A stretch of 29,121 bases of DNA, from positions 1-29,121 of the IMG/VR virus record IMGVR_UViG_3300043788_000236; one strand, 5' to 3'. Positions 2 to 27,527 of this stretch are shown here, in pieces. Source of the DNA: a virus. The notes below the pieces were generated by a model. That model saw nothing but the letters and a program-made list of their open reading frames with translations. It searched no databases and was not told the DNA's origin. The first letter of the stretch is position 1; every line of letters starts with the position of its first letter. The translations under genes and the position numbers were made by a program.

Positions 2-898
2 GCTATACCAAAAGAACCGGGGCCGCTTCTTATCGTTGGTCTTCGTGGTTTAGGCGATAACATTCACCAAAGAGCTTTTGTTCGGGACTTAAAACGGCCC
101 CTTTATCTAAATACCCCCTGGCCCGAGTTGTATGAGGATCTTCCAAACGTAACTTTTGTTCCTTGCAGAACTTACCTTCGGACACAAATCAAAAACTTAA
201 TGCGACAAAAGGCGGACCGGTTTAAGGATGCTCCTTTTGGTTGTAGGATGGTAACCATCTCCTATAATGAAAACGACTTGATTATGGGTTCTGCTTTTTC
301 CCGGATTAGTCAATTATTTGGCGGGGTTCATCCAACCTATTTGGATTTACCATGGTTTAATCCACCTGCTTTAACAGGTTTAAATTTAGAAGATAAACCA
401 ATTGCCATAATTCGGCCCCCCACTGTTCGCCGGGAATGGATGAATATTTCCCGCAATCCTAAATCTCAATATATAAATGATGTCGCTGGTTGGCTTTTGG
501 ATGCCGGTTATTGTGTTATTTCCATTTGTGATCTCACTGAAGAAGACGAATGGTTGGCCGGAGAACCTCCTCCTGCAAGTATTCATCTTCATAAAGGGGA
601 GTTGACAGTAACAGAGTTGTTGGGTCTTGTCCAAAATTCAAGCGCTTTGGTTGGGGGTGTTGGATTTCTTTTATCTGCGGCTTTGGCCACTGGCAAGCCT
701 ATGTTGCTTGTAGCGGGTGGTTATGGCGGGCAAAACGATGTTCACCAAGTGGCGGACCCTTCCTATTGTGATAATTCTAAGGTAACTTGGATTTATCCGG
801 ATAACTTTTGCCAGTGCATAGAAATGATTCATCCTTGTGATAAGACAATTTCCAATTTTGATGAAAAGGTACAAGCGTGGATCAAAAATATAAGCTAG
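2..898 (+). CDS. GT9-like glycosyltransferase, 5' end cut by the window edge
   Basis: The frame is open from base 2, so the N-terminus lies outside the window; 298 residues are visible. A TTG at 128 could be misread as a start, but the codons before it read as protein with a glycine-rich GLRGLGDNIHQ segment. That is the kind of N-terminal loop seen in heptosyltransferase (GT9, GT-B fold) enzymes. The C-terminal part has ALVGGVGFLLSAALATGKP, matching the donor-binding region where GT9 proteins have a conserved 'G..H.A.A.G.P' stretch. It overlaps the methyltransferase gene by 22 bases, and a second GT-like gene follows. Family membership rests on motif shape only and the sugar and acceptor are unknown. 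Its place just before the connector genes suggests modification of a virion protein or surface glycan, which is inference. Confidence 0.6.
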   Translation, partial: AIPKEPGPLLIVGLRGLGDNIHQRAFVRDLKRPLYLNTPWPELYEDLPNVTFVPCRTYLRTQIKNLMRQKADRFKDAPFGCRMVTISYNENDLIMGSAFSRISQLFGGVHPTYLDLPWFNPPALTGLNLEDKPIAIIRPPTVRREWMNISRNPKSQYINDVAGWLLDAGYCVISICDLTEEDEWLAGEPPPASIHLHKGELTVTELLGLVQNSSALVGGVGFLLSAALATGKPMLLVAGGYGGQNDVHQVADPSYCDNSKVTWIYPDNFCQCIEMIHPCDKTISNFDEKVQAWIKNIS

Positions 899-3714: not shown

Positions 3715-4151
3715 TGCCTTCAACTTATTTACAGGATATTGCGGCATGGTTTACCTTGTTACAAATTGCGGATGCGCCAAATGGTGTCCTTACCGGATGG
3801 GGTTTATCTTTGGGGCAACAACCTAATACACCGGATCAGTGCGTAACTATTTACGAAACAGGGGGAATGCCACCGGATATAAAAAGAACGGGTTCTTTAG
3901 AAAAACAATATGACCGGATAGGTTTACAAGTTCGGGTAAGAGGACCATTACAGCAGGACTACATGACACCACGGAATAAAATCCAGGACGTCTTTAAAGC
4001 TTTACACGAAAACGAACCCCCTCGGTCCCTTACCCAAAAAAGAATAGTAGCTTGTTATGCGGTTAATTCAGGGGCTTTACCAATGGGGTTAGATAAAAAG
4101 GATCGTATGGAGTTTGTTTGGAATTTTAAAATAATTCGGGAACGGGAATAA
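3714..4151 (+). CDS. Tail terminator-like / minor capsid family protein
   Basis: The gene encodes 145 residues. The middle contains QCVTIYETGGMPPD, then YDRIGLQVRVRGPLQQDY, then a helix ending in FKALHEN. This alternation of 'v.i..tgG.p', 'iqv.vRg..y' and 'a...l' matches small phage proteins of the lambda gpU / tail terminator type and the PF12691-like minor capsid family. These form the ring that stops tail tube growth and joins tail to head. Start and stop overlap neighbours (ATG at 3714 over the previous stop, TAATG at the end). Position directly before the tail tube genes supports the assignment. Confidence 0.62.
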   Translation: MPSTYLQDIAAWFTLLQIADAPNGVLTGWGLSLGQQPNTPDQCVTIYETGGMPPDIKRTGSLEKQYDRIGLQVRVRGPLQQDYMTPRNKIQDVFKALHENEPPRSLTQKRIVACYAVNSGALPMGLDKKDRMEFVWNFKIIRERE

Positions 4152-5386
4152 TGGCCCAACGATTTAACCCAATTTATCTTTCTTCCTTTAACCTAACTGG
4201 TTACAACTTTAATAATTTTGTAGCGGGTTTTGTGTGCCAGGATTCTTCCGGAAACTTTTGGGTTACGGATACAAAAAATCCAAATATTTTAAAATTTAAT
4301 TCCCAAGGTGTTTTTGTTTCTTATTTTACTAACAGCGTTTTTAATTCTTCTGAACCGGCATGTATAGCCATTTCTCCATTGACAGGTAATTTATGTGTTA
4401 GCAATGATACTCCTAACATTTACGAATTTTCTTTTTCCGGAACACTTTTAAACACATACATAACAGCCGCCGCTATTGTTAGCGGTTTCTCTTTTGATAA
4501 TTCTGGTTACTGTTTTTTAGGGGATTTGGAACACGGCGTTGTCTATGTTTATACTCCTAATTTTGTTTCTATTCAAAATAGTTTTACTCAAGCGGCCGGG
4601 GTTATTGATGTTTTTATAAGTATTTCTCTTGGGCTTGTTTACATTACAAATGCTTTTTCAAATCAAGTTTTTGTTTATTCAATTAACAATTATGTGTTTA
4701 CATTTTCTTTTATTTTAAAAAATGTTCCAATTTCTTATAGCGCTCCTTTTTCTGCACGTCCTGATTTCCTTGGTTACATATACACGACACCCCAAAGTAA
4801 TAATCATAATATTTATGTTTTTGATTCTTCCGGTAATTTTTTATTGGAAATAAATAATCCTTCTAATTCTTTAAGAGGAATGTTAATTATAGGAAATAAT
4901 TTATATGTAGCCTCTTCCCAAATTACGGTGTTCAGTTTATATACACAAATTATAAACAACCCTCCAGCTCCCAACGTTGGAGAAGCACAAAAAGGGCGTT
5001 CCTTTACGCTGTCTGTAATTGATCCTTCTACAAACGGTTACGATGTAATAGGCGGTTTTTCTTTAACTAGTTTAAAAGGAAATAATAAATTAGCCGATGT
5101 AACGGACAAAGACAGTGAAAGTTGGGAGGAGTTTTTAGCTACTCTTACTTCCGTTTTAATAACAGGCCAAGGAACATTTAAAGGAACTGCTGGGGAAATT
5201 TTAGTGGAAAAATATTTTTGGGTCGGTTCTTCCAATCCTTTTCAAGTTTCATTTGAAAATGGAAGTACCCTAACGGCTGCTTTCATTGTAAAAGATTTTG
5301 AATATTTGGGAAATGTAAATGATTTAAGGAAATACAACGTAACACTTCAATCAAGTTTTAAAATAACTTACGCTTCGGCGCAGTAA
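4151..5386 (+). CDS. Tail tube-like protein with N-terminal beta-propeller
   Basis: The gene encodes 411 residues in two parts. Residues 1 to about 265 hold repeated 40-45 residue units of the NHL / strictosidine-synthase-like type, each with a G-(N/Y)-x-(F/L/I) strand and an I-x-x-(F/Y) strand (for example SGNFWVTDTKNPNILKFNSQ and TGNLCVSNDTPNIYEFSFSG), about six blades. Residues 270 to 411 look like a TP901-1/HK97-type major tail tube domain: GGFSLTSLKGNNKLADVTDKD, SESWEEFLATL, a GTFKGTAGE segment and a long C-terminal strand pair. The next gene is a plain tail tube protein, so this one is probably a decorated minor tube subunit or a receptor-facing variant. The domain split is seen in sequence; the virion location is inference. 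Confidence 0.62.
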   Translation: MAQRFNPIYLSSFNLTGYNFNNFVAGFVCQDSSGNFWVTDTKNPNILKFNSQGVFVSYFTNSVFNSSEPACIAISPLTGNLCVSNDTPNIYEFSFSGTLLNTYITAAAIVSGFSFDNSGYCFLGDLEHGVVYVYTPNFVSIQNSFTQAAGVIDVFISISLGLVYITNAFSNQVFVYSINNYVFTFSFILKNVPISYSAPFSARPDFLGYIYTTPQSNNHNIYVFDSSGNFLLEINNPSNSLRGMLIIGNNLYVASSQITVFSLYTQIINNPPAPNVGEAQKGRSFTLSVIDPSTNGYDVIGGFSLTSLKGNNKLADVTDKDSESWEEFLATLTSVLITGQGTFKGTAGEILVEKYFWVGSSNPFQVSFENGSTLTAAFIVKDFEYLGNVNDLRKYNVTLQSSFKITYASAQ

Positions 5387-5395
5387 AGGAGATTT

Positions 5396-5827
5396 ATGGG
5401 AGCCAGTAATGCAACAAAAACTAAAGGTGATTTGTGGGTTGTAGCCATTAACCCGGGCGGTTATAGTGCAACCCCGAATTGGATAACAATTGTTTCCCAG
5501 TCCACATGCAAATTTTCGTTTAAGAATAAAACGGAAGATGTGACGGGGAAAGAGGATAATGGCTGGGATGCAACAATTCCCGGGAACACAGGTTGGACCC
5601 TGGCCATGGATGGTTTTATTGTTTTGTCGGATACTGGTTATCAAACAATAGAAACCGCTTTGCAACAAACCCAAGCCTGTTATATTCAGGTAACACGGCC
5701 GGATGGAAAGGCTTACCAGGGTAATGCCGTGTTGGCCGGTTTTGATTTGGATTTATCCGTTGGAAAGGTGGCGGCATTTTCCGTTTCCTTTACGGGGGAC
5801 CAAGCATTAACCAGTTTCCCTATTTAA
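5396..5827 (+). CDS. Major tail tube protein (TP901-1-like)
   Basis: The gene encodes 143 residues. STCKFSFKNKTEDVTGKEDNGWDATIPG carries the hallmark 'd.T.k.s.gW.e.l.G' of phage major tail proteins. It is followed by a strand with GWTLAMDGFIVLSD, a helix TIETALQ, and a closing GFDLDLSVGKVAAFSVSFTGDQALT pattern, the usual C-terminal strands of this family. The ribosome site AAAGGAG lies 5 bases before the ATG at 5396. The following chaperone pair and tape measure gene give the standard siphovirus order. The protein probably self-assembles into the tail tube. It shows faint similarity in layout to the C-terminal half of the preceding gene, suggesting a duplication. Confidence 0.78.
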   Translation: MGASNATKTKGDLWVVAINPGGYSATPNWITIVSQSTCKFSFKNKTEDVTGKEDNGWDATIPGNTGWTLAMDGFIVLSDTGYQTIETALQQTQACYIQVTRPDGKAYQGNAVLAGFDLDLSVGKVAAFSVSFTGDQALTSFPI

Positions 5828-5864: not shown

Positions 5865-6251
5865 ATGAGTGCAACTACGATAACGCCGGTTTCTTTGACT
5901 CGGAGTGGGGTCGTTGTAGCCCCGGTTGGTTCCGATGTTAATAACGGAAATCAAATTCCGTTAACGGGTTTTGAGCAAGTGGAAATTATTAACGGGGACA
6001 GTGTGACGCGCACTGTTACTTTTGTTTGTCAATCCAAAAATAGCAGGGGACAAGCAAATCCGAACATAGTGGCACCCGTGGCGGCCGCTACCACTTTGGT
6101 TTTCGGACCTTTTCAAAAAGCGGATTGGGCGGACGCCAATAGTAACTTACAGTTAACTTGGTCGGCGGGAACATCTTCCACGCTAACCACCGTAAGGGCT
6201 TCCAAGAATTTGGTTAGTAACCCCTCCTCGGATACGGAAGGTTCCTTGTAA
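5865..6251 (+). CDS. Small beta-rich virion-type protein
   Basis: The gene encodes 128 residues. It contains LTRSGVVVAPVGSDVNNGNQIPLTGFEQVEIINGDSVTRTVTFVC and later TLVFGPF. This pattern ('t..g......a.d..nGn...n.G...l.v.N.....tvtf') is common in small phage structural or decoration-like proteins, usually about 110 residues. I recognise the pattern, not a named family. It has no signal peptide or membrane segment, and its C-terminus is serine/asparagine-rich. A very strong ribosome site (AGGAGG, 6 bases before the ATG) and its own intergenic spacing suggest high expression. It may be a tail tube decoration or accessory subunit given its place between tube and chaperone genes. Confidence 0.55.
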   Translation: MSATTITPVSLTRSGVVVAPVGSDVNNGNQIPLTGFEQVEIINGDSVTRTVTFVCQSKNSRGQANPNIVAPVAAATTLVFGPFQKADWADANSNLQLTWSAGTSSTLTTVRASKNLVSNPSSDTEGSL

Positions 6252-6286: not shown

Positions 6287-6676
6287 ATGGTAACAGTAAC
6301 ATTGCCGGATAATGAGGATAATTCTAAAAGTAAAGAATATAAACTTCACTTTGGAATCAAGGAACTTGCAATGATTGAGAAGTTCCATGGTTGCAATTTG
6401 AGTACCCTAGCCAGCAAAGAAAGGTTTGGAATTGATAGTTTGATAACTTCCCTTTGGGCTGGAATGACAAGACTTCAACCGGAGTTTTTAGAACCAGAAA
6501 ACCGGGAAGATGTCTTAATGCTTTTGGATTATTATCAAAGTCACGGCGGGGATGTGGCCCTTGTTCGAAAGGCCGTAATGGAAGCCTTGGTGGTTGGTGG
6601 TGCAATGGGAAAAAAGAAGGGGGAAGAGGAACCACCTACCTCTTCCCCGCAAATTTCAGCGCAGGCCAATTCCTAA
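6287..6676 (+). CDS. Tail assembly chaperone, short form (gpG-like)
   Basis: The gene encodes 129 residues. The body is predicted helical (LHFGIKELAMIEKFHG, then DSLITSLWAGMTRL, then a Q/S/H-rich helix), which fits the small tail assembly chaperones that precede tape measure genes. The C-terminal 20 residues after KKKGEEE are low-complexity and are encoded downstream of a -1 frameshift site, so they are the unshifted tail. Ribosome site AGGAG is 7 bases before the ATG. In lambda the equivalent proteins gpG and gpGT are made in a fixed ratio and load onto the tape measure protein during tail assembly. Sequence similarity to gpG itself is not visible; the assignment rests on position and recoding site. 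Confidence 0.75.
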   Translation: MVTVTLPDNEDNSKSKEYKLHFGIKELAMIEKFHGCNLSTLASKERFGIDSLITSLWAGMTRLQPEFLEPENREDVLMLLDYYQSHGGDVALVRKAVMEALVVGGAMGKKKGEEEPPTSSPQISAQANS

Positions 6677-6981
6677 AGGATTGGGAAGAAATTGCAGAAG
6701 AGTATGAAATAAATCTTCCTGAATTAACCATTCCGGAATTTAAAAAGTCCTTGGAAAAGGCTAGAAAAAAAGAAAAGCGGGAAGCCTTACGGTTTGCCGC
6801 TTTAGCTTTTCTTTTAATGAAAGCCTTGGGTGTTAAAAAAATAAAAAAACCACAAGATTTAATTCACTTCTTTTTAACTAGTTTGCCGGAAGACCCAAAC
6901 AAGGACAAAGATCTTTTAACCCAAGCAAAGGCCGCCTTGGAAAGGCATAGGAGAATTCATGGCAGAAGCAACGGGCGATGA
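6287..6981 (+). CDS. Tail assembly chaperone, -1 frameshifted long form (gpGT-like)
   Basis: This is the predicted fusion of about 231 residues: zero frame from 6287 to the slippery site at 6607-6616, then the -1 frame to the stop at 6979-6981. The T part (from about 6613) reads DWEEIAEEYEINLPELTIPEF, then a lysine-rich helix and ALRFAALAFLLMKALGVKKI, and has no ribosome site or start codon near its beginning. It overlaps the tape measure start by 23 bases. The G-T extension is known from lambda and many other siphoviruses, where the T domain recruits the tape measure protein. The unshifted frame stops at 6674-6676, inside the T frame. Confidence 0.8.
6607..6648 (+). promoter_or_regulatory. 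Programmed -1 frameshift signal
   Basis: GGGAAAAAAG (6607-6616) holds two overlapping slippery heptamers, both correctly phased to the zero frame: G GGA AAA and A AAA AAG, the latter being the dnaX type. A perfect 10-bp hairpin follows, GGGGAAGAGG (6620-6629) pairing with CCTCTTCCCC (6639-6648) around a 9-base loop. The spacer is 3 bases from the second heptamer or 6 from the first, close to the usual range. Confidence 0.85.
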
Positions 6982-8428
6982 TACATTTGCACAAGTAATG
7001 GTAAAAATTGGTGCAGATATTTCCGGACTTAAGGATGGACTTTCCCAGGTTGGGTCCATGTTTAAGGACCTTACTTCCTTGATGGGTTTATCCTTGGGTA
7101 TTGGAGGTTTGCTCGAACTTGGTAAAGCCTCCATAGAAGCGGCTTCTGATGCCCAACAAGCGGAAGTAATGTTTGCCGCCGCCTTGGGTAGTATTGGGGT
7201 GAGTTACGTTGAAGTAAGTGGAGAGGCTAACCAGTATTTAGAAAAAATTCAAGAAATAGATGGTTTTCACAAAAGTGAAGCTCAACCGGCTTTAACTAAG
7301 TTAATTCAGATGACGGGTAATTACATTGAATCCTTAAAGCTTTTATCCTTGGCGGCTAATGTGGCCAGGGGTAGCGGTCAAGATCTTATGCAGGCCTCTA
7401 CTATGTTGGGACGTGTGTATGATGGTAATACCACCATGCTAAAAAGATTTGGAATGCAGGTGGATAAATCCACATCCTCTGTGGATGCCCTAGCTATGGT
7501 TCAGAAACGTTTTGCAGGGGACGGGGCGGCTTACATGCGCACATATGCCGGCCAGGTTCAAAACTTTACAAACCAATGGACAACGGCCAAGGAAGTTATA
7601 GGAAAGGTTCTTATTGTTATTTTAAAAATGGCCGAAGACCAGTTTATGATCGAAATGGACGCCTTGAAAATGATTTACTTTTCTTTTTTAAGTTATTATC
7701 AAATGACTGTTAGATGGTTGGAAGAACATATCCCTGGATTAAAAAAAATATTTGGGGACGTAGCTGATGACGCCGGCGTTAAATTTGATGGTGCTTTTGC
7801 GGACATGAAAAAACATTTTCACGATATCCTAAATCCAACTAGTTTCGACTCTCAAACAAAGGCTATTGCCGCTTCCGTAAATGCGAACACAAAAAAAGCT
7901 TCTGATGACTTTGATGCCCTTGGAAAAGTTATAGGGGACATAGCCCAACAAGGAGCCTTGGATTTTGCAAATGATTTTTCTGCTTCCTTTTCTTTATTTG
8001 AAAAAGGAACTATTCAAATAGGTACCGCCTTTAAAAAAATGTTGGATCAAATGGTTCAACAAATTATTAAATCCGGCATTTTAAACTTTATTGGTCTTAT
8101 CTTTGGTGGTACTCCGACAGGTGGTTTTGGAATATTGGGAAATATTTTTGGAGGGGGAAAAGGCGGTGGGGGTGCGGCGGATGTTCCCAAAATGGCAAGC
8201 GGTGGAATAGTAAATTCCCCCACCCTGGCCATGATTGGGGAAGCCGGTCCAGAAGCAGTTATTCCCCTGAACCAACTACAGGGAAACGGGGTGGGTGGGG
8301 GTTCTTCAACTACTAATTACATCACGGTTTCCTTGCCGTCCCTTATAAATGTAATGGACCCTAGTTCTTACAATCAGGCCTTACAGTTTATTGGGAATGG
8401 GTTAAAAGCCAAAGGAATCATTTCTTAA
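6959..8428 (+). CDS. Tape measure protein
   Basis: The gene encodes 489 residues. The start follows the classic beginning of tape measure proteins, a short strand (VMVKIGADISGLKDGLSQVGSMF) and long alanine/lysine-rich helices. The C-terminal end has the usual MASGGIVNSPTLAMIGEAGPEAVIPL signature. Glycine-rich and hydrophobic stretches in the middle and near residues 365-395 are typical. At about 0.15 nm per residue the tail would be near 70 nm, so this is a short siphovirus-type tail. The ATG has a GGAG site 6 bases upstream and overlaps the chaperone T frame by 23 bases. It governs tail length and probably helps DNA entry. Confidence 0.9.
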   Translation: MAEATGDDTFAQVMVKIGADISGLKDGLSQVGSMFKDLTSLMGLSLGIGGLLELGKASIEAASDAQQAEVMFAAALGSIGVSYVEVSGEANQYLEKIQEIDGFHKSEAQPALTKLIQMTGNYIESLKLLSLAANVARGSGQDLMQASTMLGRVYDGNTTMLKRFGMQVDKSTSSVDALAMVQKRFAGDGAAYMRTYAGQVQNFTNQWTTAKEVIGKVLIVILKMAEDQFMIEMDALKMIYFSFLSYYQMTVRWLEEHIPGLKKIFGDVADDAGVKFDGAFADMKKHFHDILNPTSFDSQTKAIAASVNANTKKASDDFDALGKVIGDIAQQGALDFANDFSASFSLFEKGTIQIGTAFKKMLDQMVQQIIKSGILNFIGLIFGGTPTGGFGILGNIFGGGKGGGGAADVPKMASGGIVNSPTLAMIGEAGPEAVIPLNQLQGNGVGGGSSTTNYITVSLPSLINVMDPSSYNQALQFIGNGLKAKGIIS

Positions 8429-13396: not shown

Positions 13397-14332
13397 ATGG
13401 AAACAAAGAATAAACCAATGTTTCAAGGATGGGGGCACAAACTCATAATGCTTTGGCTTATGGCCTCTTTTTTCTTATTCATTGGTTTTTTGTTTGCTTT
13501 TGTTCCAAAACCACATATTGAAAAAACAAAAACATACAAAGCATTGGAACAAAGCCTTACTCGACCGGATAAATGGATAAATCTTACTACAGACAGATTA
13601 TTTAATATCCTGGCAAAACGCCATGAACTTTCCTATTGGACGGAAGATGGAAAAAAACACCCTACTAATTGGTCTAAACTAAGAAGAAATATTGTAAACG
13701 CTTATGACGCTTCCGAGTTAAACCCTTCCAGCGGTTCCAGGAAACAAACCACTATTAAACTTTTAGACAATCAATATATAGAAAGCCGGTTTAACCAATA
13801 CGCCTTTCACTTAAATTCTGACGGTTCTTGGGACATTGGTTTAGGTGGGATAAATTCCTGTAATTGGTTTGATAAAGTAGGGGCTCAAATTTGGGAGAAT
13901 TTCTGTATTAAACAGGGTCTTGACCCTAAAAATATTTCCCTTCTTTATGATTCCAGGGTAAACACTTTTTATATGGCCTATCTTATGGAGTTATATGGAA
14001 AAAAGCATTGGCGTTTGTATACAAGAAAGAAGAGTTTAAATAATCACTATGTTTATAAAAACCTGAAAAGCGTTGTACCCCGGGAAACCGGAGGAAATAA
14101 AGGAGGTAGTAATGAAAAATTTTCTGCTGGTATTTCTTTTAGCTTCGCTGGGTTGGGCGCAAACACCTACCCAAAAAATAGTGGCAACGGCTACGCCGGC
14201 CCTGTCCGTGGTTTCGGATGGCATTACCTTAGTGATAGATGGGGGTTATACCTGGGACCAGCATGCCGCCAAGTTCAAATTCGGTACTCCGGAATTCAAA
14301 CAAGCCCGGTTAGAAGTTATTGCCTACGCTGA
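13397..14332 (+). CDS. Lytic transglycosylase-like protein with N-terminal anchor
   Basis: The gene encodes 311 residues. One hydrophobic segment (about 15-36) could anchor it in the inner membrane. The catalytic region resembles SLT/goose-type transglycosylases: LLDNQYIESRFNQYAF with the likely acid Glu129, SDGSWDIGLGGIN, then DPKNISLLYDSRVNTFYMAYLMELYG. Such enzymes cut the MurNAc-GlcNAc bond of peptidoglycan. The last 73 residues (from about 14112) overlap a clearly real secreted-protein gene in another frame and look unlike the domain, so the native end may be near 14070-14110 with a lost stop. There is no good ribosome site at the ATG. Confidence 0.6.
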   Translation: METKNKPMFQGWGHKLIMLWLMASFFLFIGFLFAFVPKPHIEKTKTYKALEQSLTRPDKWINLTTDRLFNILAKRHELSYWTEDGKKHPTNWSKLRRNIVNAYDASELNPSSGSRKQTTIKLLDNQYIESRFNQYAFHLNSDGSWDIGLGGINSCNWFDKVGAQIWENFCIKQGLDPKNISLLYDSRVNTFYMAYLMELYGKKHWRLYTRKKSLNNHYVYKNLKSVVPRETGGNKGGSNEKFSAGISFSFAGLGANTYPKNSGNGYAGPVRGFGWHYLSDRWGLYLGPACRQVQIRYSGIQTSPVRSYCLR

Positions 14333-14693
14333 CGCCGTAGCGGCCGCTCAAGCCGCCAACAAAAAGGGGGATTACGTTACCGCCGAATCCATTTCCCCGG
14401 AATATGTTACAAGGGCCTTTTACGGTCTGTCCGTTCTTCGAACTTTAATGGGAGGAAAACGTAAGGCGGATCGTAGTTGGGGAAGTTATCCAGCAGATGC
14501 AAAAGGCGTTTTGGATTCTTCCAAAGTGGACCCCCTGGCTATCCAAGTAAAATTTAATTATGTTCAGAAGTGGGTTAATGGAGCCCTGGCCAGTGGAAAA
14601 ACAAAAGATAGCCAGGGGAATGACGTAGCCTTGGTTCAGTCCTATTTGGACGCCTATGCCAAGGGATTATTGAAAAATATTTTAAAGCCGTAA
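14112..14693 (+). CDS. Secreted protein of unknown function
   Basis: The gene encodes 193 residues from the ATG at 14112, chosen because AAAGGAGG lies 5 bases upstream; an earlier start at 14073 has no such site. The first 16 residues (MKNFLLVFLLASLGWA) are a clear Sec signal peptide with an A-Q-T cleavage region, so the product is exported to the periplasm or outside. The mature part is alanine/lysine-rich and helical (EFKQARLEVIAYADAVAAAQAANKKGDY). It has no cysteine and no catalytic motif that I recognise. The stop is followed by a terminator. Its position beside the transglycosylase and holin-like genes suggests a lysis or envelope role, which is inference. Confidence 0.72.
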   Translation: MKNFLLVFLLASLGWAQTPTQKIVATATPALSVVSDGITLVIDGGYTWDQHAAKFKFGTPEFKQARLEVIAYADAVAAAQAANKKGDYVTAESISPEYVTRAFYGLSVLRTLMGGKRKADRSWGSYPADAKGVLDSSKVDPLAIQVKFNYVQKWVNGALASGKTKDSQGNDVALVQSYLDAYAKGLLKNILKP

Positions 14694-14699
14694 GGAAAC

Positions 14700-14731
14700 A
14701 AGGGGGGTTCTAGGACCCCCCTTAACTTTTT
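14700..14731 (+). terminator. Rho-independent terminator
   Basis: AAGGGGGGT (14700-14708) and ACCCCCCTT (14715-14723) form a 9-bp stem with a 6-base loop, followed by a T run (14727-14731). It sits 7 bases after the stop of the secreted-protein gene and 16 bases before the next ATG, so it may partly limit transcription into the holin-like gene. Confidence 0.8.
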
Positions 14732-14746
14732 GTAAGGAGAAATAAC

Positions 14747-15190
14747 ATGCCTAAACCAGTTGGACTTTTCCAAGACCCGCATTTTATTGGTATTTTAACT
14801 CAACTTGCCGGGGTGGCCGTGTGGGGTTCTTCCCATTTGGCTTTGATTCCTTCACCTGCTCAACCTTATTTTGCTCTCGCAGGTGAGTTGGTGGTTTTAG
14901 TGGGTTCCGTGTTTCATATCAAAGGTTTAATGGACCCAGCCTCTACCCAAACCCCTCCTCCCGTTGTGGCCGATGTAACTGCGGAGGTTACCGGAGTTCA
15001 AAATGTGGTAAGCGCCACGGAGGCCTTGTTACAAGCGCAAAAAACTATCCAAGGTCATATTGACAGTTTAACGGCGGTTCAAGCCACTTTGGCACAGGCT
15101 AGCACGGTTGTAACGGCTAACACGCCTTCCCCCGTGGTGGTTATTCCTCCCGCTGTCACTGTGGTCCCACCTTCGGTGAAACCACAGTGA
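14747..15190 (+). CDS. Holin-like membrane protein
   Basis: The gene encodes 147 residues. Two hydrophobic segments lie in the N-terminal half: about residues 12-32 (FIGILTQLAGVAVWGSSHLAL) and 40-60 (YFALAGELVVLVGSVFHI). A helical region with alternating V/A/Q/T follows, and the C-terminus is proline/valine-rich (VVVIPPAVTVVPPSV). Two-span proteins of this kind next to phage envelope-degrading genes are usually holins, although this one is longer than most class II holins because of its tail. AAGGAG is 8 bases before the ATG. The stop overlaps the GTG of the next gene (GTGA), so the two are coupled. Confidence 0.55.
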   Translation: MPKPVGLFQDPHFIGILTQLAGVAVWGSSHLALIPSPAQPYFALAGELVVLVGSVFHIKGLMDPASTQTPPPVVADVTAEVTGVQNVVSATEALLQAQKTIQGHIDSLTAVQATLAQASTVVTANTPSPVVVIPPAVTVVPPSVKPQ

Positions 15191-16065
15191 GGGCCGTTGT
15201 TTATTTTGGGGGCGGTCCGAAAATAGCTGTTCATGCCGGTTATTCAAAGGGGGCCTTGGCCTCTATAATACCTACAGCAGATCACCTTTATGGCGTGTCC
15301 GCAGGTAGCCTTTGGGCCTTAATTGAGGCTACTATCGGCACGGATGCTGGTATTGCCTTACTGGGCACCATAACCAGCAATGATTCCATATATGCTACCA
15401 AGGATAAGGTGGCCTTGGCGGGGGACTTATTGTTCCGTGCGGGGGATGGTTTCATTCTTGGTTATGCCCCATTATTGGAATTGCTCAAAACAAAAATTCC
15501 TCCCGGAGTAAAAAAACCCGTTACCGTTGGGCGTGTTCAAAACAATACCATGCGTCTTCAACATGTAACCGCTTGGCCGGATGGTACCTTTACAACGGAT
15601 GCTGACGACCTTGGACCTATTACCACTTGGGAAGAGTTTTTATTGGCTGTTCTTTCCTCGTGTTTAACCTACCCCATTGTTGATATGTATGTGGACCCTG
15701 CTGGAAAGTTCTGGCAAGATGGGGGATTCCGGGAAGGTGGTCCCGTGGTTCGGGCTATTCTTGATGGTGCAACCGAACTGCATATTTGTATGACAGGGGA
15801 ATATTCCTCCAACTGCGCTTTTGACAATACTACGGGAGGAGACCCCATTAACTGTTCGACCCGTACCCTGGAGGGTATGGCTAATCAAAATGTTATTGGT
15901 TCCGTAAACGATGCCGTGGAAAACCCAGCCCTTTCCGTGTTTGTTTATAAATGCACACCCCAAGGGTCCGGAACCGTTTTTGATCAGGTGGACATTCAAG
16001 CCAACATCAAAATCGGACAAGCAGTTACGGCCATAGCCGGTAAAGATTTAGTTTTACAGGAGTAA
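15187..16065 (+). CDS. Patatin-like phospholipase
   Basis: The gene encodes 292 residues from a GTG whose last two bases are part of the preceding stop. The three patatin elements are all present: the glycine-rich oxyanion loop GGGPK (residues 8-12), the nucleophile elbow GVSAG with Ser38, and the catalytic dyad DGG with Asp178. Patatin-family enzymes are lipid acyl hydrolases. Here the gene is paired by overlap with a holin-like gene, which suggests attack on host membrane lipids at lysis, or delivery with the virion; both are inference. No signal peptide is visible. Confidence 0.82.
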   Translation: MRAVVYFGGGPKIAVHAGYSKGALASIIPTADHLYGVSAGSLWALIEATIGTDAGIALLGTITSNDSIYATKDKVALAGDLLFRAGDGFILGYAPLLELLKTKIPPGVKKPVTVGRVQNNTMRLQHVTAWPDGTFTTDADDLGPITTWEEFLLAVLSSCLTYPIVDMYVDPAGKFWQDGGFREGGPVVRAILDGATELHICMTGEYSSNCAFDNTTGGDPINCSTRTLEGMANQNVIGSVNDAVENPALSVFVYKCTPQGSGTVFDQVDIQANIKIGQAVTAIAGKDLVLQE

Positions 16066-19976: not shown

Positions 19977-21923
19977 TTAAATGGAAATTTGTTTCGCCTC
20001 CCCCCAGCTAGGGCCACAATCCACGTCCACAATAGTTGGAACTTTTAATTCCACTGCATGAACCATTATTTCCACTGCCTTTTTGGCCTTTTCCGGACCA
20101 TCAAAGGAAAAACCAAGTTCATCGTGGACTTGAACCAACATATTATTTCCAAGGCCAACATTCAAAATTCCCTGCATTGCCATTTTTGTTTGATCTGCGG
20201 CACTACCCTGAATCAACCTGTTTAATTTTTTATGAAGCCAAGCCCGCCGCAAGGGTTTACCGGGCCATTGTTTTTGAGCCTTCCAAAGAGGAACAGGAGT
20301 TAAATTCCTGGCCATGACCCAATCTGCCGGTTCCCACAAAGGAAAACGACATTGCCTTCCCCCCAATGTTTTAATAAAACCATTTTTTTCAACCTGAACA
20401 CCCAACATAAAATCCAGGGCTTTCACAAAAGGAACTCTTTCATGATATTTTGCAATATAGGCTTTGGCTTCTTCCAGGGAAACACCCAATTCCACGGCCG
20501 TGCTTTGAGCGCCTCTCCCGTAAGTAAGGGCTAGGTTTAAAATTTTGGCATCCTTGTAATCCAAACCGGTTTCAGCGGCCACCATTTTATGAAAATTTGT
20601 TTTTGGGTCCGTGTTGTATTGTTCAACTGCCTTAAGTGCCCCTGGCAAATGCTGGTTCATCCGTTTGGTTATGGCGGCATAGTGAACCGTCAAACGTGGT
20701 TCCTGCTGAGAATAATCAAGGCTATACCACTGCTCCCCTTCTTCCGGTAAAAAACATTCCCGAATCATTTGACCGCTTTCTGTTCTTGTTGGAATTTGTT
20801 GAAGGTTGGGATTGGAAGAAGATAAACGTCCAGAAATTGTTCCCCCATCTTCTCCACGAAGGGGATGGAATTCCGCGTGAATACGACCATTGTGGGAATG
20901 TCCTAAAAGATGACCGTCTATAAAAGTACCGCTTAACTTATCCAGTTCACGGGATTGGGAAATAAGCTTGGTTAACCAATGGTCCTGGCTTTCCAACCAT
21001 TCCCCCGTGACGGATGGTTGGTTTGATTTTGATGTAAGGTTATATTTTAAACCTTCCTTATCTAGGGCTCTAGCCAAGGAACCGGCGGACCATAGGTCAA
21101 CTTCCACTCCCGTGCGGCGTTTTATTTCTGCAATGTTGCCTTGAACGGTTTTGCCCCACATTTCCTTAAGTTGTTCCACTTTGGGAATATCTATGCGCAC
21201 TCCCCGCCAACGCATGGAAAGATAAAGGGGTAATAAGGAACATTCCAGTTCGAACAATTTCCATAAACCTGCGGCTTCTAAAATTGGTATTTGTTTTTGG
21301 AAAACACGGCGGGTTCGGTTGGCATCCGCTTCGGCGTAAGGTCCCACAAAAGCGGCGGGTAACTGCCAGAGACCCCCTTTAGCATCCACTCCCCAGGCAG
21401 AAGCGGCACTTTTTAAAAGGGTTTCATCCTTGCCTTCCTGCAAATAAGACTTGGCCAAAGAATCTAAACTATAACCAAAACGATGTTCATCCAAAAGGGC
21501 TTCGGCCCATTGGATATCAAAACAAGGCCCCACAACTTCCACGCCATCCCTTTTAGCCCAACCTAAATCATAAAGAATGTTGGCCCCTACTTTGCGTTGG
21601 TTAGGGTTGGAAAGCCAACGGCGTATGATATCACGGGCGTGTGTGGCATTTACATTACCCCCGGATTCGTGGGCTATGGGTAAATAACCTTCCCAATTAT
21701 CCGCAGAAAAAGAATACCCAACCACACGGCCGCCACCTACCCAAGCCCAGGAAGGGCCTTGTTTGGCTTGAATACCGTCATCCCTTGTTTCTAAGTCAAA
21801 TGCTATATCCCCTTCTAACATGTGGGGAAGTTTTGCTAGGTCTGGTTCTATCCAAGTTTGGGGAAGTTTTTCTACTTCTTCAAAAGTAGGGCCATCTCCT
21901 TCCTTCCAAAAAAGGGAGCTCAT
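19977..21923 (-). CDS. DNA polymerase I, family A, with 3'-5' exonuclease
   Basis: The gene encodes 648 residues. Exonuclease: ExoI DLE (Asp43, Glu45), ExoII NILYD (Asn115, Asp119), ExoIII YAEAD (Tyr196, Asp200). Polymerase: motif A DYSQQEPR (Asp403), motif B KILNLALTYG (Lys460, Tyr468), motif C HDE (600-602). The E. coli Phe762 position is Leu464, a variant common in viral polymerases. The usual arginine ahead of motif B (Arg754) appears replaced by Tyr in LDYKDAK. There is no 5'-nuclease domain. It replicates the phage genome. The start is the ATG in the TAATG overlap with the QueE stop; AGGA lies 9 bases upstream. Confidence 0.95.
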   Translation of the reverse strand: MSSLFWKEGDGPTFEEVEKLPQTWIEPDLAKLPHMLEGDIAFDLETRDDGIQAKQGPSWAWVGGGRVVGYSFSADNWEGYLPIAHESGGNVNATHARDIIRRWLSNPNQRKVGANILYDLGWAKRDGVEVVGPCFDIQWAEALLDEHRFGYSLDSLAKSYLQEGKDETLLKSAASAWGVDAKGGLWQLPAAFVGPYAEADANRTRRVFQKQIPILEAAGLWKLFELECSLLPLYLSMRWRGVRIDIPKVEQLKEMWGKTVQGNIAEIKRRTGVEVDLWSAGSLARALDKEGLKYNLTSKSNQPSVTGEWLESQDHWLTKLISQSRELDKLSGTFIDGHLLGHSHNGRIHAEFHPLRGEDGGTISGRLSSSNPNLQQIPTRTESGQMIRECFLPEEGEQWYSLDYSQQEPRLTVHYAAITKRMNQHLPGALKAVEQYNTDPKTNFHKMVAAETGLDYKDAKILNLALTYGRGAQSTAVELGVSLEEAKAYIAKYHERVPFVKALDFMLGVQVEKNGFIKTLGGRQCRFPLWEPADWVMARNLTPVPLWKAQKQWPGKPLRRAWLHKKLNRLIQGSAADQTKMAMQGILNVGLGNNMLVQVHDELGFSFDGPEKAKKAVEIMVHAVELKVPTIVDVDCGPSWGEAKQISI

Positions 21924-22615
21924 TATTGTAATCCTAAATATTTATGTAACTGAATCCCGACTATGTACCCATGCTGAATTCCCCTGGCTATACAGGCCTG
22001 AAGGTTAGCCTTATTTTTTGTTACATCGTATTCGTCACAAGGGGATAAAAATATTGGTATTTCAGGATATTTTGGACGGGCTAGTTTTATTTTTTCTTCT
22101 TTTTTTTGTGTGGAAGACAGAGGCAAACCATCTTCACTAGCAAATAAATCTGTGCAACGAATAATATATTTAAATGCAAATGCAACCTCCTGGATTTTTT
22201 CATTTAGGATTGCGGTTTTTGGAGAAACAACCACTTTACAAAGGCGAAGGCACTCATTCCAGAGTGTGCCGGCGGTTTCTACTTGTACGGTGAAACCTTT
22301 GCTGATCAGGTGAATAACTAAAAGGTGAATAGGTTGTCTTACTGGTTCACCACCTGTTAGAACAACCAACCCAATTTGATCTTTGCCTCTTTCCTTTAAA
22401 ACGGAATCAATAATTTGGTCTAGATCCATTTCGGTCCCCGTATCAAAATCCGTATCACAAAAGGTACAAGCAAGATTGCAACCTTGGAGACGGATAAAGA
22501 TTGCGGGCCAACCGGAATAAGGCCCCTCCCCCTGGATAGTTTTAAAAATAGAAACGACCTTTAAGGTTGAACCGTCTCCCGTGTCTGGAGGGAGTTGGGG
22601 GTTTTTGCCGAACAT
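21923..22615 (-). CDS. queE: 7-carboxy-7-deazaguanine synthase QueE (radical SAM)
   Basis: The gene encodes 230 residues. FKTIQGEGPYSGWPAIFIRLQGC is the family start, followed by the radical SAM CX3CX2C as GCNLACTFCDTDFD (Cys46, Cys50, Cys53), VVLTGGEPVRQP, and the later VVSPKTA, ILSPCDEYDVTKN. QueE rearranges 6-carboxytetrahydropterin to 7-carboxy-7-deazaguanine with a [4Fe-4S] cluster and SAM. AAGGAG is 8 bases before the ATG, which fixes the start even though it overlaps the YkgJ-like gene by 55 bases. It belongs with FolE, QueD, QueC and DpdA in the same operon. Confidence 0.94.
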   Translation of the reverse strand: MFGKNPQLPPDTGDGSTLKVVSIFKTIQGEGPYSGWPAIFIRLQGCNLACTFCDTDFDTGTEMDLDQIIDSVLKERGKDQIGLVVLTGGEPVRQPIHLLVIHLISKGFTVQVETAGTLWNECLRLCKVVVSPKTAILNEKIQEVAFAFKYIIRCTDLFASEDGLPLSSTQKKEEKIKLARPKYPEIPIFLSPCDEYDVTKNKANLQACIARGIQHGYIVGIQLHKYLGLQ

Positions 22616-22902
22616 GTCAGGGGCTCCTTACAATTTTGTTTTGCACAGGGTACAGAAACCGGATGTTGTTTACAAACAATAGGCCTTTCTTTGTAATTCA
22701 TACAAAGTTTTGTTTCCTTATTAAAATATTTACAATTAAATATTTTTGAAATTTTCCCTGTAGAAATTAACATATCCACTAATTTTGGATATTCTTCTAT
22801 GGAACCATTTCCTTTTTCTTTTTTTAAAGCTTTAACTTTTATTTCTTCTAAAGTAAAAGGTAATGTAAAATTTTCACAACATTCTCCAATACAACCAGCC
22901 AT
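22561..22902 (-). CDS. YkgJ-like cysteine-cluster protein
   Basis: The gene encodes 113 residues. The pattern C-x3-CC (Cys4, Cys8, Cys9) then C57, C67, RPIVCKQHP (Cys77) fits the YkgJ family, in which the cysteines bind an iron-sulfur cluster or a zinc ion. Cysteines 86, 91 and 97 are additional. It starts at the TAATG overlap with the clamp stop. The stretch past residue 95 overlaps the QueE gene in another frame. Its neighbour QueE needs an Fe-S cluster, so a supportive role is possible but not shown. Confidence 0.72.
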   Translation of the reverse strand: MAGCIGECCENFTLPFTLEEIKVKALKKEKGNGSIEEYPKLVDMLISTGKISKIFNCKYFNKETKLCMNYKERPIVCKQHPVSVPCAKQNCKEPLTCSAKTPNSLQTRETVQP

Positions 22903-23879
22903 TAACTAACCCTCCCCACCACCACACCCGCAACCCGTTCCCCCCTAAATATGGAAGGTTTTGGCCAAGCGGATGGACTCCAACTATTTGAATTATTGAT
23001 AATGGGTATTAAATTTTCAAAATTCCAAATGGTGTAATCCCGGCTTGGCGGAATTTCGCATATTACAGTTTCCTCTAATTCAGTGTCACGTAACCTGGCC
23101 CAAAGCCTATCCCCGTAAATTCTTAAGGGTTCTTCCGCTATACCCCGCAACCGTTCAAAGGCATCCCGGAACTCCTCTGTTATAATTTGAGATGGGTTGC
23201 TTTTAGCGGCATCCTGCACCATTTTAAAAGCTGAAACAGGGAACTGGCCCATCACAACTTGGGTGCGCATCCAGGCCCCATTCTCCCATTGAAAGGCAAT
23301 ATAGTTATCCATAATCTGCCAAGACTTAACCCCCGGCCTTTTTAAAATAAAATCAATAGCCCACAACGGAAGAAGAACTTCCTTTTCCACTTGTAACCCC
23401 TGGCAAGGCAATCCGGCCACTGCCACGTTATTTGTGGCATACATCCAATCCCCATTTAGACAAACGCAATTGGCCCAAGGTTGAGTAGCATTTTGCGAAA
23501 TAAAAGGATGAAGGTCTTTAAGACTTTGAACAAAGTCCTTTGGCAATTCATAAAACTGGTTAAGTTTTACCCCTGGATAAGCCCACTGGTTTAAATCCGC
23601 AACGGTTGGAATTTTTGCCTTAAAATTTTGAGCTTTAATAAGAACATTTTTTTCGGTACACACTAAATCAATTTCCTGGTCTTCCGGAACTCTACTCACA
23701 ACTTTTTCCAATTCCATACCAGGGACAAGAACATCCCCTTCATAGGGCCAGGGGTGGCAGGCGATCATGCGCCCATCCGTGGCGGAAATGGTTTTGTCAA
23801 CAATACGGTACCATGTCATAGAAACGACAATTTCCTTGGCGGCGAGAGCACCCTTAAGCCAATTGATTTCTTGTTTCAT
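22902..23879 (-). CDS. DNA polymerase III beta-like sliding clamp
   Basis: The gene encodes 325 residues, somewhat shorter than bacterial DnaN (about 366). Resemblance is seen in KTISATDGRMIACHPWPYEGDVLVPGMELEKVV, which matches DnaN's 'l.atDg.r......... .ffvp...l..il..l', and in LVCTEKNVLIKAQNFKAKIPTVADLNQWAYPG, which matches the 'G.f.f.l....d..fP' strand. Later QFPVSAFKMV and TVICEIPPSRDYTIWNFENL also align by pattern. A clamp tethers the family A polymerase to DNA. Phages with their own DnaN-like clamp are uncommon. ATG overlaps the zinc gene stop (ATGA). Confidence 0.72.
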   Translation of the reverse strand: MKQEINWLKGALAAKEIVVSMTWYRIVDKTISATDGRMIACHPWPYEGDVLVPGMELEKVVSRVPEDQEIDLVCTEKNVLIKAQNFKAKIPTVADLNQWAYPGVKLNQFYELPKDFVQSLKDLHPFISQNATQPWANCVCLNGDWMYATNNVAVAGLPCQGLQVEKEVLLPLWAIDFILKRPGVKSWQIMDNYIAFQWENGAWMRTQVVMGQFPVSAFKMVQDAAKSNPSQIITEEFRDAFERLRGIAEEPLRIYGDRLWARLRDTELEETVICEIPPSRDYTIWNFENLIPIINNSNSWSPSAWPKPSIFRGERVAGVVVGRVS

Positions 23880-24040
23880 GGGAGTAATGTCCTATTACAA
23901 ATGTTCACCACTGTCTTAATTTTATCAAATAATTCTTTCATTAAAACAAGACAGCCCTGGCATACCCACCCAGTTAAAAAAATGGCGCCTGTTTTGGAAT
24001 CCCCCTTGGCTTTGTTACAATAAAGGCAATGTTCCCCCAT
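23876..24040 (-). CDS. Small zinc-ribbon protein
   Basis: 54 residues from the ATG at 24040. Four cysteines in two C-x2-C pairs (Cys5/Cys8 and Cys27/Cys30) enclose a beta hairpin, then a helix LVLMKELFDKIKTVVNICN. GGGAG lies 9 bases upstream and the stop is shared with the clamp start (ATGA), so it is a real link in the operon. It probably binds zinc and might be a polymerase or clamp accessory, which is inference. Confidence 0.65.
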   Translation of the reverse strand: MGEHCLYCNKAKGDSKTGAIFLTGWVCQGCLVLMKELFDKIKTVVNICNRTLLP

Positions 24041-24051
24041 TTCATTTCTCC

Positions 24052-24981
24052 CTAAAAAAGAGTTTGATGCTCTCTAACAAATATTTCAGCCCCAAGTATT
24101 TCCATCTGCTGAAACATCGCTGCATTGATTGTGTCCCTAAAGGAATAGTGCTCAGCACACTGTTCCGGGGTTATGTTGTACGGTTCCATTAGTTCACGAA
24201 TTTCGTCTTTTTCCACTGCTTTAAGTGTTGAAAAATGCCACCCATTTATTTTCTTTCGTGTCGGGCTGTCCTTTGAAAACATAATTTTTAAAACCCTTTT
24301 GTCCGGGGTTACCAATAAGCAACCACCAAAAATCCCAGTCATAAGCCAGCTCGTACTGTCCACTGAATACCAAGGGTATCGGAACATAAGTTTTTGGTCC
24401 GTAAGACCAAATCCATGCGTTTTGACTTTGGGCCGGCCCTCTTTGTCGGCTAATACCTTGTCCCACAACCCATCCAACCGATCCTTTAGCCAAACAGTTG
24501 TTTCCGGCACCATGCCTCCAATAAAAATATAATCCCAACCTTCCGCCATATATTGCTCCAAATACTTATCCGGTTCCCTTACGTGAAAAACGGGTTGTAT
24601 CTTTGCTCCTGTATTTCGTAGCCAGTCAAAATTCTTTTTGGAACCAATAGCGGACTCTTCCCCCTGGCCGATATGGTCTAGGGAAGAACAGGTTGTCCAC
24701 ATGGTTTGTGTTTTTTTCACAAACTCGGAAAAATCGTTTATGTTAATCAAGGCCCCTTTGCTAAAAGCGGAAAATGCTCCGGAGTCTAAAAATAGGTCTA
24801 GACCTAATTTGTGGGAGGCGAGAATATCCTCGCTTGGTTTATTATTTTTGTTATGGTAGAAATATGAAAAAAGTCTCCGCTTAACATGGGTTAACCAAAT
24901 TGGGGAATCCCATCGTTCCTCCCCTTGGCGCTCAACTTTTGCTTCAGCACCGGAGCGTTCCCCGGCGAGGTAAACTTTCAT
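24052..24981 (-). CDS. dpdA: DpdA-like DNA deazaguanine transglycosylase
   Basis: The gene encodes 309 residues, TGT-fold. DSGAFSAFSKG (Asp66) matches the general acid motif DSGGF of tRNA-guanine transglycosylases. A second catalytic Asp is suggested in YSVDSTSW (Asp208). Also typical of DpdA are SLDHIG (Asp102), PVFHVRE, YIFIGGMVPE and THGFGLT. DpdA enzymes replace guanine in DNA by preQ0 (and derivatives); in phages they protect the genome from restriction. It shares an operon with QueC, QueD, QueE and FolE. The ATG overlaps the preceding stop (ATGA). The zinc site of bacterial TGT is not seen. Confidence 0.82.
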   Translation of the reverse strand: MKVYLAGERSGAEAKVERQGEERWDSPIWLTHVKRRLFSYFYHNKNNKPSEDILASHKLGLDLFLDSGAFSAFSKGALININDFSEFVKKTQTMWTTCSSLDHIGQGEESAIGSKKNFDWLRNTGAKIQPVFHVREPDKYLEQYMAEGWDYIFIGGMVPETTVWLKDRLDGLWDKVLADKEGRPKVKTHGFGLTDQKLMFRYPWYSVDSTSWLMTGIFGGCLLVTPDKRVLKIMFSKDSPTRKKINGWHFSTLKAVEKDEIRELMEPYNITPEQCAEHYSFRDTINAAMFQQMEILGAEIFVREHQTLF

Positions 24982-25157
24982 TTAAGCACCCATTGAAGTG
25001 CTTCAAGTTGACCTACTAAGTATTTTTTCTTATCAGCCATTTTTCTTACATCATAAAAAACTTTTTCTTTTATTTTTCGTTGAATAACAGTATCCAAAGA
25101 TTCAACCTCACATTGGAGATATTCTATTTGTTTTCGAATCTCCGGTGTTAATTTCAT
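24978..25157 (-). CDS. Small helical coiled-coil protein
   Basis: 59 residues from the ATG at 25157, which overlaps the previous stop (ATGA). Reading starts KLTPEIRKQIEYLQCEVESLD and continues as a single charged helix with heptad spacing, ending in LVGQLEALQWVLK. A longer reading starting at 25193 runs into the neighbour. No family is recognised. It is coupled to the DpdA gene by the same overlap pattern (ATGA at 24981), which hints at a partner role. Confidence 0.6.
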   Translation of the reverse strand: MKLTPEIRKQIEYLQCEVESLDTVIQRKIKEKVFYDVRKMADKKKYLVGQLEALQWVLK

Positions 25158-25381
25158 TCCGTTTTTTCCTTCGGCAAATAAGACCGCTCCCAAATTTCAA
25201 TTGCGCCGGAATCTTTGTATTCTTCCTTTATATCCACGGCCTTTGTATCCTCTGCAATAAGATAAATAATTAAACAGGCGGGATGAAAATACCCATACAG
25301 TTTAATACTAAAGGCATAGTAGTCGTCCAATTTAGTATCTTTGCAAAAAAGGCATTTACCATTTTCCAAAATTTCAGCCAT
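25154..25381 (-). CDS. Small cysteine/histidine protein
   Basis: 75 residues from the ATG at 25381, chosen because GAGGA lies 6 bases upstream. CLFC (C-x2-C) near residue 10 and FHPACL (His, Cys) about 25 residues later would bind one zinc ion. The rest is mixed, with an acidic stretch at the end. It overlaps the membrane-protein gene by 8 bases. No family is recognised. Confidence 0.55.
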   Translation of the reverse strand: MAEILENGKCLFCKDTKLDDYYAFSIKLYGYFHPACLIIYLIAEDTKAVDIKEEYKDSGAIEIWERSYLPKEKTE

Positions 25382-25571
25382 GTGGGTCCTCATCCATATC
25401 TGTAACTTGATTTATTAACATGTCAAAAGTAAAGGCAGTGATTAAAAGGGCTGTAAAGCCTGCAACTTCCCATTCGTGGGAAAAAGCATAACCAATAAAT
25501 TCCCCGCAAATAATACAAATAAAAAAAGCGGCAAATAAGTTACGGTCTTTTGTGAAACTAAGAAATTTCAT
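25374..25571 (-). CDS. Small two-span membrane protein
   Basis: 65 residues with two hydrophobic spans, about residues 12-30 (LFAAFFICIICGEFIGYAF) and 37-56 (AGFTALLITAFTFDMLI), separated by a short charged loop, then an acidic end. ATG overlaps the MazG stop (ATGA). It probably sits in the inner membrane. The role is unknown; it is odd inside a nucleotide-modification operon. Confidence 0.6.
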   Translation of the reverse strand: MKFLSFTKDRNLFAAFFICIICGEFIGYAFSHEWEVAGFTALLITAFTFDMLINQVTDMDEDPHG

Positions 25572-25957
25572 AACTTAATATTCGTTCCTTTTTTATCACT
25601 TGTTTCATTGAATTTTTTAATAATAGATTTTCCAATGTGTCCACCTAAACGGGTAGCCAATAAATCTGCGTAAATTACAGTATCTGCAAGTTCGTCTAAG
25701 ATTTTTCCAATTAGGATATCCTTTTGAATTTCAAATTCTTTTGTTCCCCACAACTGTTTATCATCCATTAACCGGCGGAGTTTTTTAACTTCATTACAAG
25801 CTTCCCCCATTTCCCCCGCCATGGCACAAGCCCAATCGGTAGGGGACCAATTATCCAAGCGGTGATAAACCTGTTCACAACGAGTAAAATTTTTTATTTC
25901 TAAAGTTTCAAATGTTAGGGGTAATCTTTGTTCCCATGCGTATTCTTGAGGATTCAT
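25568..25957 (-). CDS. MazG-like nucleotide pyrophosphohydrolase
   Basis: 129 residues, all helical. The metal-binding pattern ExxE...ExxD of the MazG/iMazG superfamily is present: GEMGEACNEVKK (Glu49, Glu52) and DELADTVIY (Glu89, Asp92). Such enzymes hydrolyse NTPs or dNTPs to the monophosphate and pyrophosphate. In this operon it might trim GTP or (d)NTP pools, or remove dGTP variants, while the phage modifies DNA; this is inference. ATG overlaps the FolE stop by ATGA. Confidence 0.85.
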   Translation of the reverse strand: MNPQEYAWEQRLPLTFETLEIKNFTRCEQVYHRLDNWSPTDWACAMAGEMGEACNEVKKLRRLMDDKQLWGTKEFEIQKDILIGKILDELADTVIYADLLATRLGGHIGKSIIKKFNETSDKKGTNIKL

Positions 25958-26835
25958 AAGGATAAAAATTCCGCCCTTGCCGCCCCTTTACTTCTAAACA
26001 CCCCTCTTAACACACAGGAAACCGTCTGGTGGCCCCGCTGGCTTACACCACGGGATTCACAGCATAGATGACGGGCTGTAAGGCGAACCCCAACACCCAA
26101 GGGTTTAAGGTTGTCCTGTAAAGCATCCGCAATTTGAACGGTCATTCTTTCTTGAACCTGTAAACGCCTGGCAAAGGCATTTACCAAACGGTTAATTTTG
26201 GATAACCCCACTATTCTCCCTTTTGGAATATAGGCAACGGTAGCCACACCAAAAAAAGGAGCTAAATGATGTTCACAGTGGGAATAAAAAGGAATGTCTT
26301 TAACCACCACCATCTCATCGTAGCCGTTTGCCCCATCCTTAAAAGTTTTAAGAATATCTTCCGGATGTTGTTTGTACCCGGAACACCATTCCTGCCAGGC
26401 TTTAGCCACACGGGATGGGGTTTCCTTAAGTCCCTCACGAGTCGGGTCTTCCCCAATAAATTGGAGAAGGCGGACAATGTTATCTTCAAAGGAGCCTTGT
26501 TCATTTTGTTCCCAGGGAAAGACAAGCCATTGGCCTTTATAGATTTTACGTTTATCAAAAAGGGCAAAAAAGGGTTTGGGATATTTTGTTTGCCATTGTT
26601 TTTGGGTATGTCCGGAATCCACCAAGTCATCCACTAAAGCATGGGCTTCCAGAATATTATCTGTTACTTTAATTTTTCCATGACTCGCCACGGAACCCGC
26701 TATGGCATAAGCGGCCGGAACCCCTCCACGAGGAATGCCATAGATAAAGATTTTTTTTGCCACTACATTTTCCAAAATTTCTGCGGCTTGATATGTTGCG
26801 GCGTTTTCAATTTGTTGTTGAGTTAGGCGAATCAA
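25954..26835 (-). CDS. folE: Phosphoribosyltransferase-GTP cyclohydrolase I fusion
   Basis: 293 residues from a TTG at 26835 that overlaps the QueD stop (TTGA). Residues 1-110 look like a type I PRTase: IYGIPRGGVP and the PRPP loop LVDDLVDSGHT (67-77). Residues 115-293 are GTP cyclohydrolase I: IGEDPTREGLKETPSRVAKAW, SHCEHHLAPF (Cys187, His190), GLSKINRLVNAFARRLQVQE and ARHLCCESRGV (Cys258), the expected zinc ligands. FolE makes dihydroneopterin triphosphate from GTP, the first step to preQ0. The PRTase half could recycle guanine released by DpdA, which is speculation. Confidence 0.9.
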   Translation of the reverse strand: MIRLTQQQIENAATYQAAEILENVVAKKIFIYGIPRGGVPAAYAIAGSVASHGKIKVTDNILEAHALVDDLVDSGHTQKQWQTKYPKPFFALFDKRKIYKGQWLVFPWEQNEQGSFEDNIVRLLQFIGEDPTREGLKETPSRVAKAWQEWCSGYKQHPEDILKTFKDGANGYDEMVVVKDIPFYSHCEHHLAPFFGVATVAYIPKGRIVGLSKINRLVNAFARRLQVQERMTVQIADALQDNLKPLGVGVRLTARHLCCESRGVSQRGHQTVSCVLRGVFRSKGAARAEFLSL

Positions 26836-27458: not shown

Positions 27459-27527
27459 AGTATAAGCTTCCGCTTTTACCCCCGCAGTTTTTGTATAGAT
27501 AGTTTCCCCCTGTTTATTGTTTTTTAG

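Follow-up and report, generated by a model that had tools for sequence, protein, structure and literature searches.

A tail chaperone-like gene with a tandem slippery site and a strong downstream stem-loop, read as a probable lambda-like G/G-T frameshift

The gene at positions 6287-6676 raises the question of whether programmed -1 frameshifting near its end produces a lambda-like pair of tail assembly chaperones, G and G-T, and whether the two slippery heptamers and the hairpin found there make the site unusual. The window is the whole 29,121-base viral record IMGVR_UViG_3300043788_000236, positions 1-29,121. A preliminary description had proposed a tail chaperone frameshift of the G/GT type, and this proposal is well supported by the gene order, the family match, the open and coding -1 frame, the phased slippery site and the stem, making a frameshifted G/G-T pair very likely.

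The G-like tail assembly chaperone gene (6287-6676, + strand) encodes 129 aa in frame 0, has an AGGAG ribosome-binding site upstream and matches phrog_2115 (tail protein, E 8.8e-6). That family is labelled 'tail protein' and not 'chaperone'; VD13 gp30, which occupies the same place, matches phrog_2115 weakly. The Pfam search of G matched no chaperone family, and the single-sequence structure prediction was poor, with a pLDDT of 54. Upstream lie a tail terminator (PF12691) and then two tail tube genes (PF06199 / phrog_1407), including the major tail (tube) protein gene at 5396-5827 (+; phrog_1407 major tail protein, E 2e-20), with a small gene (5865-6251) filling the interval between tube and G. 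Downstream, the tape measure protein gene at 6959-8428 (+; phrog_1535 tail length tape measure protein, E 9.6e-17) has a start that overlaps the end of the T-like frame. G thus has the tail tube genes before it and the tape measure gene after it, as in the G/G-T chaperone layout. The two adjoining genes at 4151-5827 (+) have a tail tube domain in common (phrog_1407); in the first it is accompanied by a long N-terminal extension with an NHL-repeat match.

Relatives were sought in viral contigs for G, the tail tube, the tape measure and the 128-895 protein, in bacterial genomes for G, and in phage records for G, the fusion and the terminator, with nothing usable for the slip site; close relatives of G, tube or tape measure were not found in the collections scanned. 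EBPR siphovirus 6, with a weak tape measure match, has no phased heptamer by the rules used. Topoisomerase-sharing records (L002-L004) contain no detectable relative of the G family or the tape measure. The phage topoisomerase of the window and a DNA polymerase I-like gene lie near a set of minus-strand genes (21923-28172) with matches to QueE, queuine tRNA-ribosyltransferase (DpdA-like), GTP cyclohydrolase and QueC, which on these matches are likely to form a 7-deazaguanine DNA-modification cluster. The 128-895 (+) protein shows 37-38% identity to Pseudomonas and Klebsiella phage products, and some phage products of this kind are annotated as glycosyltransferase family 9 (heptosyltransferase).

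The T-like extension occupies the -1 frame at 6616-6981 (+), open as far as 6981, so that its last 23 bases lie inside the tape measure gene. Codon log-odds over 6677-6958 are +10 for the -1 frame versus -62 and -37 for the other frames, and the first ATG, GTG or TTG past the slip site is at 6751; the frame has coding character and lacks a good start of its own. The T part matches PF06223 Phage_tail_T at E 0.02, below the family cut-off, and the predicted G-T fusion comprises 231 aa. The overlap at 6617-6676 has a poor codon score in every frame, and a -2 product would be short because the third frame closes at 6707. Elsewhere, a +1-phase open frame at 14073-14693 (+) overlaps the end of gene 13397-14332, with the codon signal over 14073-14332 favouring the +1 frame (4.9 vs -9.4) and a signal-peptide-like start MKNFLLVFLLASLGWA; it is either an overlapping gene or a frame change.

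Examination of the slip site confirmed base for base the coordinates and phases of the two heptamers that had been described, G_GGA_AAA (6607-6613, +) and A_AAA_AAG (6610-6616, +), both in the X_XXY_YYZ phase. The G-frame codons at 6605-6649 read ATG GGA AAA AAG AAG GGG GAA GAG GAA CCA CCT ACC TCT TCC CCG. The combined sequence GGGAAAAAAG occurs once in the window, both strands scanned, and in-phase A_AAA_AAG occurs twice among 8,615 codons of the window, the other occurrence, at 13999, being without a downstream fold. At least one such double site appeared in the window's genes in 2.2% of codon-shuffle trials, and within gene 6287-6676 in 0.14%. The 100 heptamers in the main genes of the window form 10 adjacent tandem phased pairs of any kind; tandem pairs in this broad sense are common here and can arise by chance.

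Slipping at G_GGA_AAA or at A_AAA_AAG would give one and the same 231-aa fusion protein. The best motifs in E. coli are C_CC.A_AA.G, G_GG.A_AA.G and A_AA.A_AA.G, while G_GG.A_AA.A was inefficient in earlier work yet belongs to the broad good class V_VV.A_AA.R (PMC4066793). By this measure the second heptamer, which is of the dnaX type, is the expected main slip site. The suggestion that two heptamers make the site special was therefore not upheld: the fusion is the same from both, A_AAA_AAG ranks with the best motifs of E. coli, the other being reported as weaker (PMC4066793), tandems occur in 10 of 36 surveyed genes, and an identical, in-phase GGGAAAAAAG is found in the chaperone gene of an unrelated phage, L195.

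A candidate internal Shine-Dalgarno-like stretch, GGTGGTTGGTGG, lies at 6589-6600 (+), 6 nt before the first heptamer and 9 nt before the second. Pairing of its GGTGG with the anti-SD gives a duplex of -8 to -9 kcal/mol, inside the range of the window's gene starts, anti-SD use being assumed ordinary. This stretch may be a chance product of Gly/Val codons and is weak evidence; with its GGTGG 9 nt ahead of A_AAA_AAG, it may favour slipping a little. The heptanucleotide GGTGGTT (6589-6595) is fully complementary to AACCACC (6630-6636) in the hairpin loop, a pairing that is probably due to chance, with a contact between loop and upstream stretch possible.

The stem-loop at 6620-6648 (+), a candidate stimulator, is formed by the arms GGGGAAGAGG (6620-6629) and CCTCTTCCCC (6639-6648), which pair perfectly over 10 bp around a 9-nt loop, AACCACCTA (6630-6638), with a stability of -19.4 kcal/mol. 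The perfect 10-bp stem reported 3-6 bases downstream was thus verified, the spacers being 6 nt from G_GGA_AAA and 3 nt from A_AAA_AAG, or 12 nt and 9 nt when counted from the respective P codons. Shuffling gave z-scores of -3.7 (dinucleotide) and about -6 (mononucleotide). None of the other in-phase XXXYYYZ heptamers of the window, 118 in all, is followed by a fold as strong as that after the pair at 6607-6616 (-19 to -20 kcal/mol in a 45-nt stretch; runner-up -16.6), and the stem belongs to the small group of strongest 34-nt hairpins there. When the G frame was recoded synonymously, 0.36% of trials attained the stability of the stem, showing that the G protein sequence alone does not account for it. 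Recoding that keeps the amino acids of both frames leaves four sequences, all strong-stemmed, so the stem is perhaps partly a by-product of dual coding. Rfam placed no family at the site at its cut-off. A separate, very stable inverted repeat, TCACTGTGGT...ACCACAGTGA (15151-15195, -28.8 kcal/mol), lies where genes 14747-15190 and 15187-16065 meet.

To place the site among comparable genes, 100 loci with related tail tubes were surveyed, mainly from one tail-tube family and with some related sequences counted separately; the search alignment used five sequences, since one of nine proved too heterogeneous for the purpose. Of the 100 loci, 47 had a phased heptamer together with a -1 extension, representing 36 distinct genes, nearly all immediately preceding a long tape-measure-like frame, and 53 loci had no candidate by the rules used. 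Tandem phased heptamers were found in 10 of these 36 genes, including G_GGT_TTT_TTG, the U analogue of the window site. The best 40-nt fold was -19.5 at the window site and at most -16.6 among the 36, none of which had a mononucleotide-shuffle z beyond -3.5 (window site about -6); the window stem is stronger than those at all 36 sites, in lambda and in Phobos. A viral-contig scan for GGGAAAAAAG followed by a G run returned at least 80 loci. One locus among the matches listed, L195 (IMG/VR phage 3300000969_000007), carries GGGAAAAAAG in the phase of the window site, close to the end of a phrog_344 tail assembly chaperone gene; the -1 frame there matches a phrog_337 tail protein and overlaps the tape measure, which comes next. 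It differs from the window in its weak downstream fold (-6.5) and in the PHROG families of its proteins. The double slippery sequence therefore has an independent precedent. Within the sample of 36 sites, lambda and Phobos, the strong stem is without precedent, a real but quantitative oddity and an outlying candidate stimulator.

The same gene order with a slippery heptamer at the same place is found in lambda, Phobos, PBL1c, Jacopo, GR1 and the 36 distinct surveyed genes. Lambda gpG/gpGT (G_GGA_AAG) shares with the window the gene order, the -1 phase, the slip site near the G end, the overlap of T with the tape measure gene and similar product sizes. It differs, as had been described, in having a single heptamer (GGGAAAG) and no strong stem, with a best 40-nt fold of -6.6 versus -19.5 in the window. 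The Paenibacillus larvae Fernvirus phages PBL1c and Jacopo, with a distantly related tail tube and the same gene order, carry tandem phased A_AAA_AAA and A_AAA_AAG near the G end but no strong stem at the site (an identical site in locus L020 has a best 40-nt fold of -5.9). The Jacopo record annotates the frameshift product as a joined CDS, and a description of P. larvae phage genomes gives AAAAAAG as a tentative slip site (PMC6003738). Geobacillus GR1 has a phased A_AAA_AAC at the same place. In Phobos (Casjensviridae), the pre-tape-measure gene shows GGGAAAG, a -1 extension and a fold 6 nt downstream; it differs in having one heptamer, a G of another family and a fold (z -1) not clearly above shuffles.

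The E. coli dnaX cassette, in which A_AAA_AAG is followed by a 10-bp stem (PMC7282821), shares with the window this heptamer, the stem-loop and possibly an upstream SD-like stretch, expected about 10 nt ahead in dnaX-type sites and weak in the window. The spacer is 5 nt in dnaX versus 3 nt in the window, and slipping shortens the dnaX product whereas it would extend that of the window. The window site shows the dnaX-type succession of A_AAA_AAG and a stem-loop in the range of about 10-12 bp. A stimulator typically begins 5-8 nt (PMC4066793) or 5-9 nt (PMC7618472) downstream, and the dnaX and HIV stems, near 10-12 bp plus loop, act at 11-12 nt from the P-site codon (PMC7282821, PMC8861025). That distance fits only G_GGA_AAA (12 nt), A_AAA_AAG lying outside it at 9 nt.

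On this geometry, and assuming an ordinary lysine tRNA set and anti-SD use, the majority of ribosomes would pass 6607-6616 in frame and stop at 6676, yielding G of 129 aa. With the G_GGA_AAA codons in the P and A sites, the stem would stand at the mRNA entry, 12 nt from the P codon, and would have to open before the ribosome advances to A_AAA_AAG. While the ribosome is delayed in this way, the two lysine tRNAs on A_AAA_AAG could re-pair one base back, the Gly/Lys pair on G_GGA_AAA doing so less often, and the slipped ribosomes would continue to 6981, yielding G-T of 231 aa. Because the stem lies 12 nt from one P codon and 9 nt from the other, ribosomes would meet it and slow down while still on the weaker motif and would have unwound part of it by the time they reach the stronger one. 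We infer that A_AAA_AAG, aided by the stem, would account for most of the slipping and G_GGA_AAA for a small part. If the products work as in lambda, G would coat the tape measure protein and the T part would recruit the tail tube protein, and the G:G-T ratio would matter for assembly. No value can be predicted for the efficiency: motif and stem point to a high one, but the short 3-nt spacer behind A_AAA_AAG points to a lower one, and high efficiency should not be taken for granted. For reference, G and G-T stand at about 30:1 in lambda (PMC5009743), and two HK97-like chaperone genes show 6-7% frameshifting (PMC3711429).

A stronger reading holds that both heptamers and the stem are tuned together, giving two chances to slip and an unusually high or adjustable output. 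The stem is the strongest of the surveyed sample, and its distances of 12 nt and 9 nt from the two P codons would, under the 11-12 nt rule (PMC7282821, PMC8861025), let it contact the ribosome across both registers. Yet the weaker motif is the better spaced and the better motif the worse spaced, tandem phased heptamers arise by chance and are present in 10 of the 36 genes surveyed, L195 has the same double site with a weak fold only, and lambda-type assembly uses a low G-T share (30:1, PMC5009743), so such joint tuning is unlikely. Slightly less probable is the further reading that a stem engaging two successive slippery registers lifts the G-T share far above lambda's few per cent, with a different tail-assembly stoichiometry.

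The remaining explanations dispense with ribosomal slipping. The stem could be a transcription terminator or a chance feature, with T translated separately or not at all, and a few comparably strong hairpins do exist elsewhere in the window; however, it has no following T run, lies inside two overlapping frames and is unlike the window's terminator-like hairpin near 14702-14731, while T has no in-frame start codon from the slip site to 6751, making this very improbable. The hairpin at 14702-14731 (+), GGGGGGTTCTAGGACCCCCC then TTAACTTTTT, has the look of an intrinsic terminator between gene blocks. That RNA polymerase slippage on the A6 run, and not the ribosome, opens the -1 frame is most improbable: the six-A run does coincide with the point where the frames join, but evidence of selection against A runs comes mostly from runs of nine nucleotides (PMC1088944), and this reading offers no account of the strong stem that follows so closely. 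An assembly or sequencing error splitting one chaperone gene might be suspected, given that this viral contig comes from a public collection and has a homopolymer where the frames meet, but the split, the phase and the tape measure overlap fit the G/T layout of many phages, and we give such an error equally scant probability.

Read as a programmed G/G-T frameshift, the locus provides a clear further example of this mechanism, by which many tailed phages produce a shorter and a longer version of a tail assembly chaperone, in a phage for which no close relative was found, and not a new kind of signal. For annotation, 6287-6981 should be treated as encoding two products from one start. If dnaX-like efficiency proved true, the site would test how strictly tail assembly needs a low G-T share.
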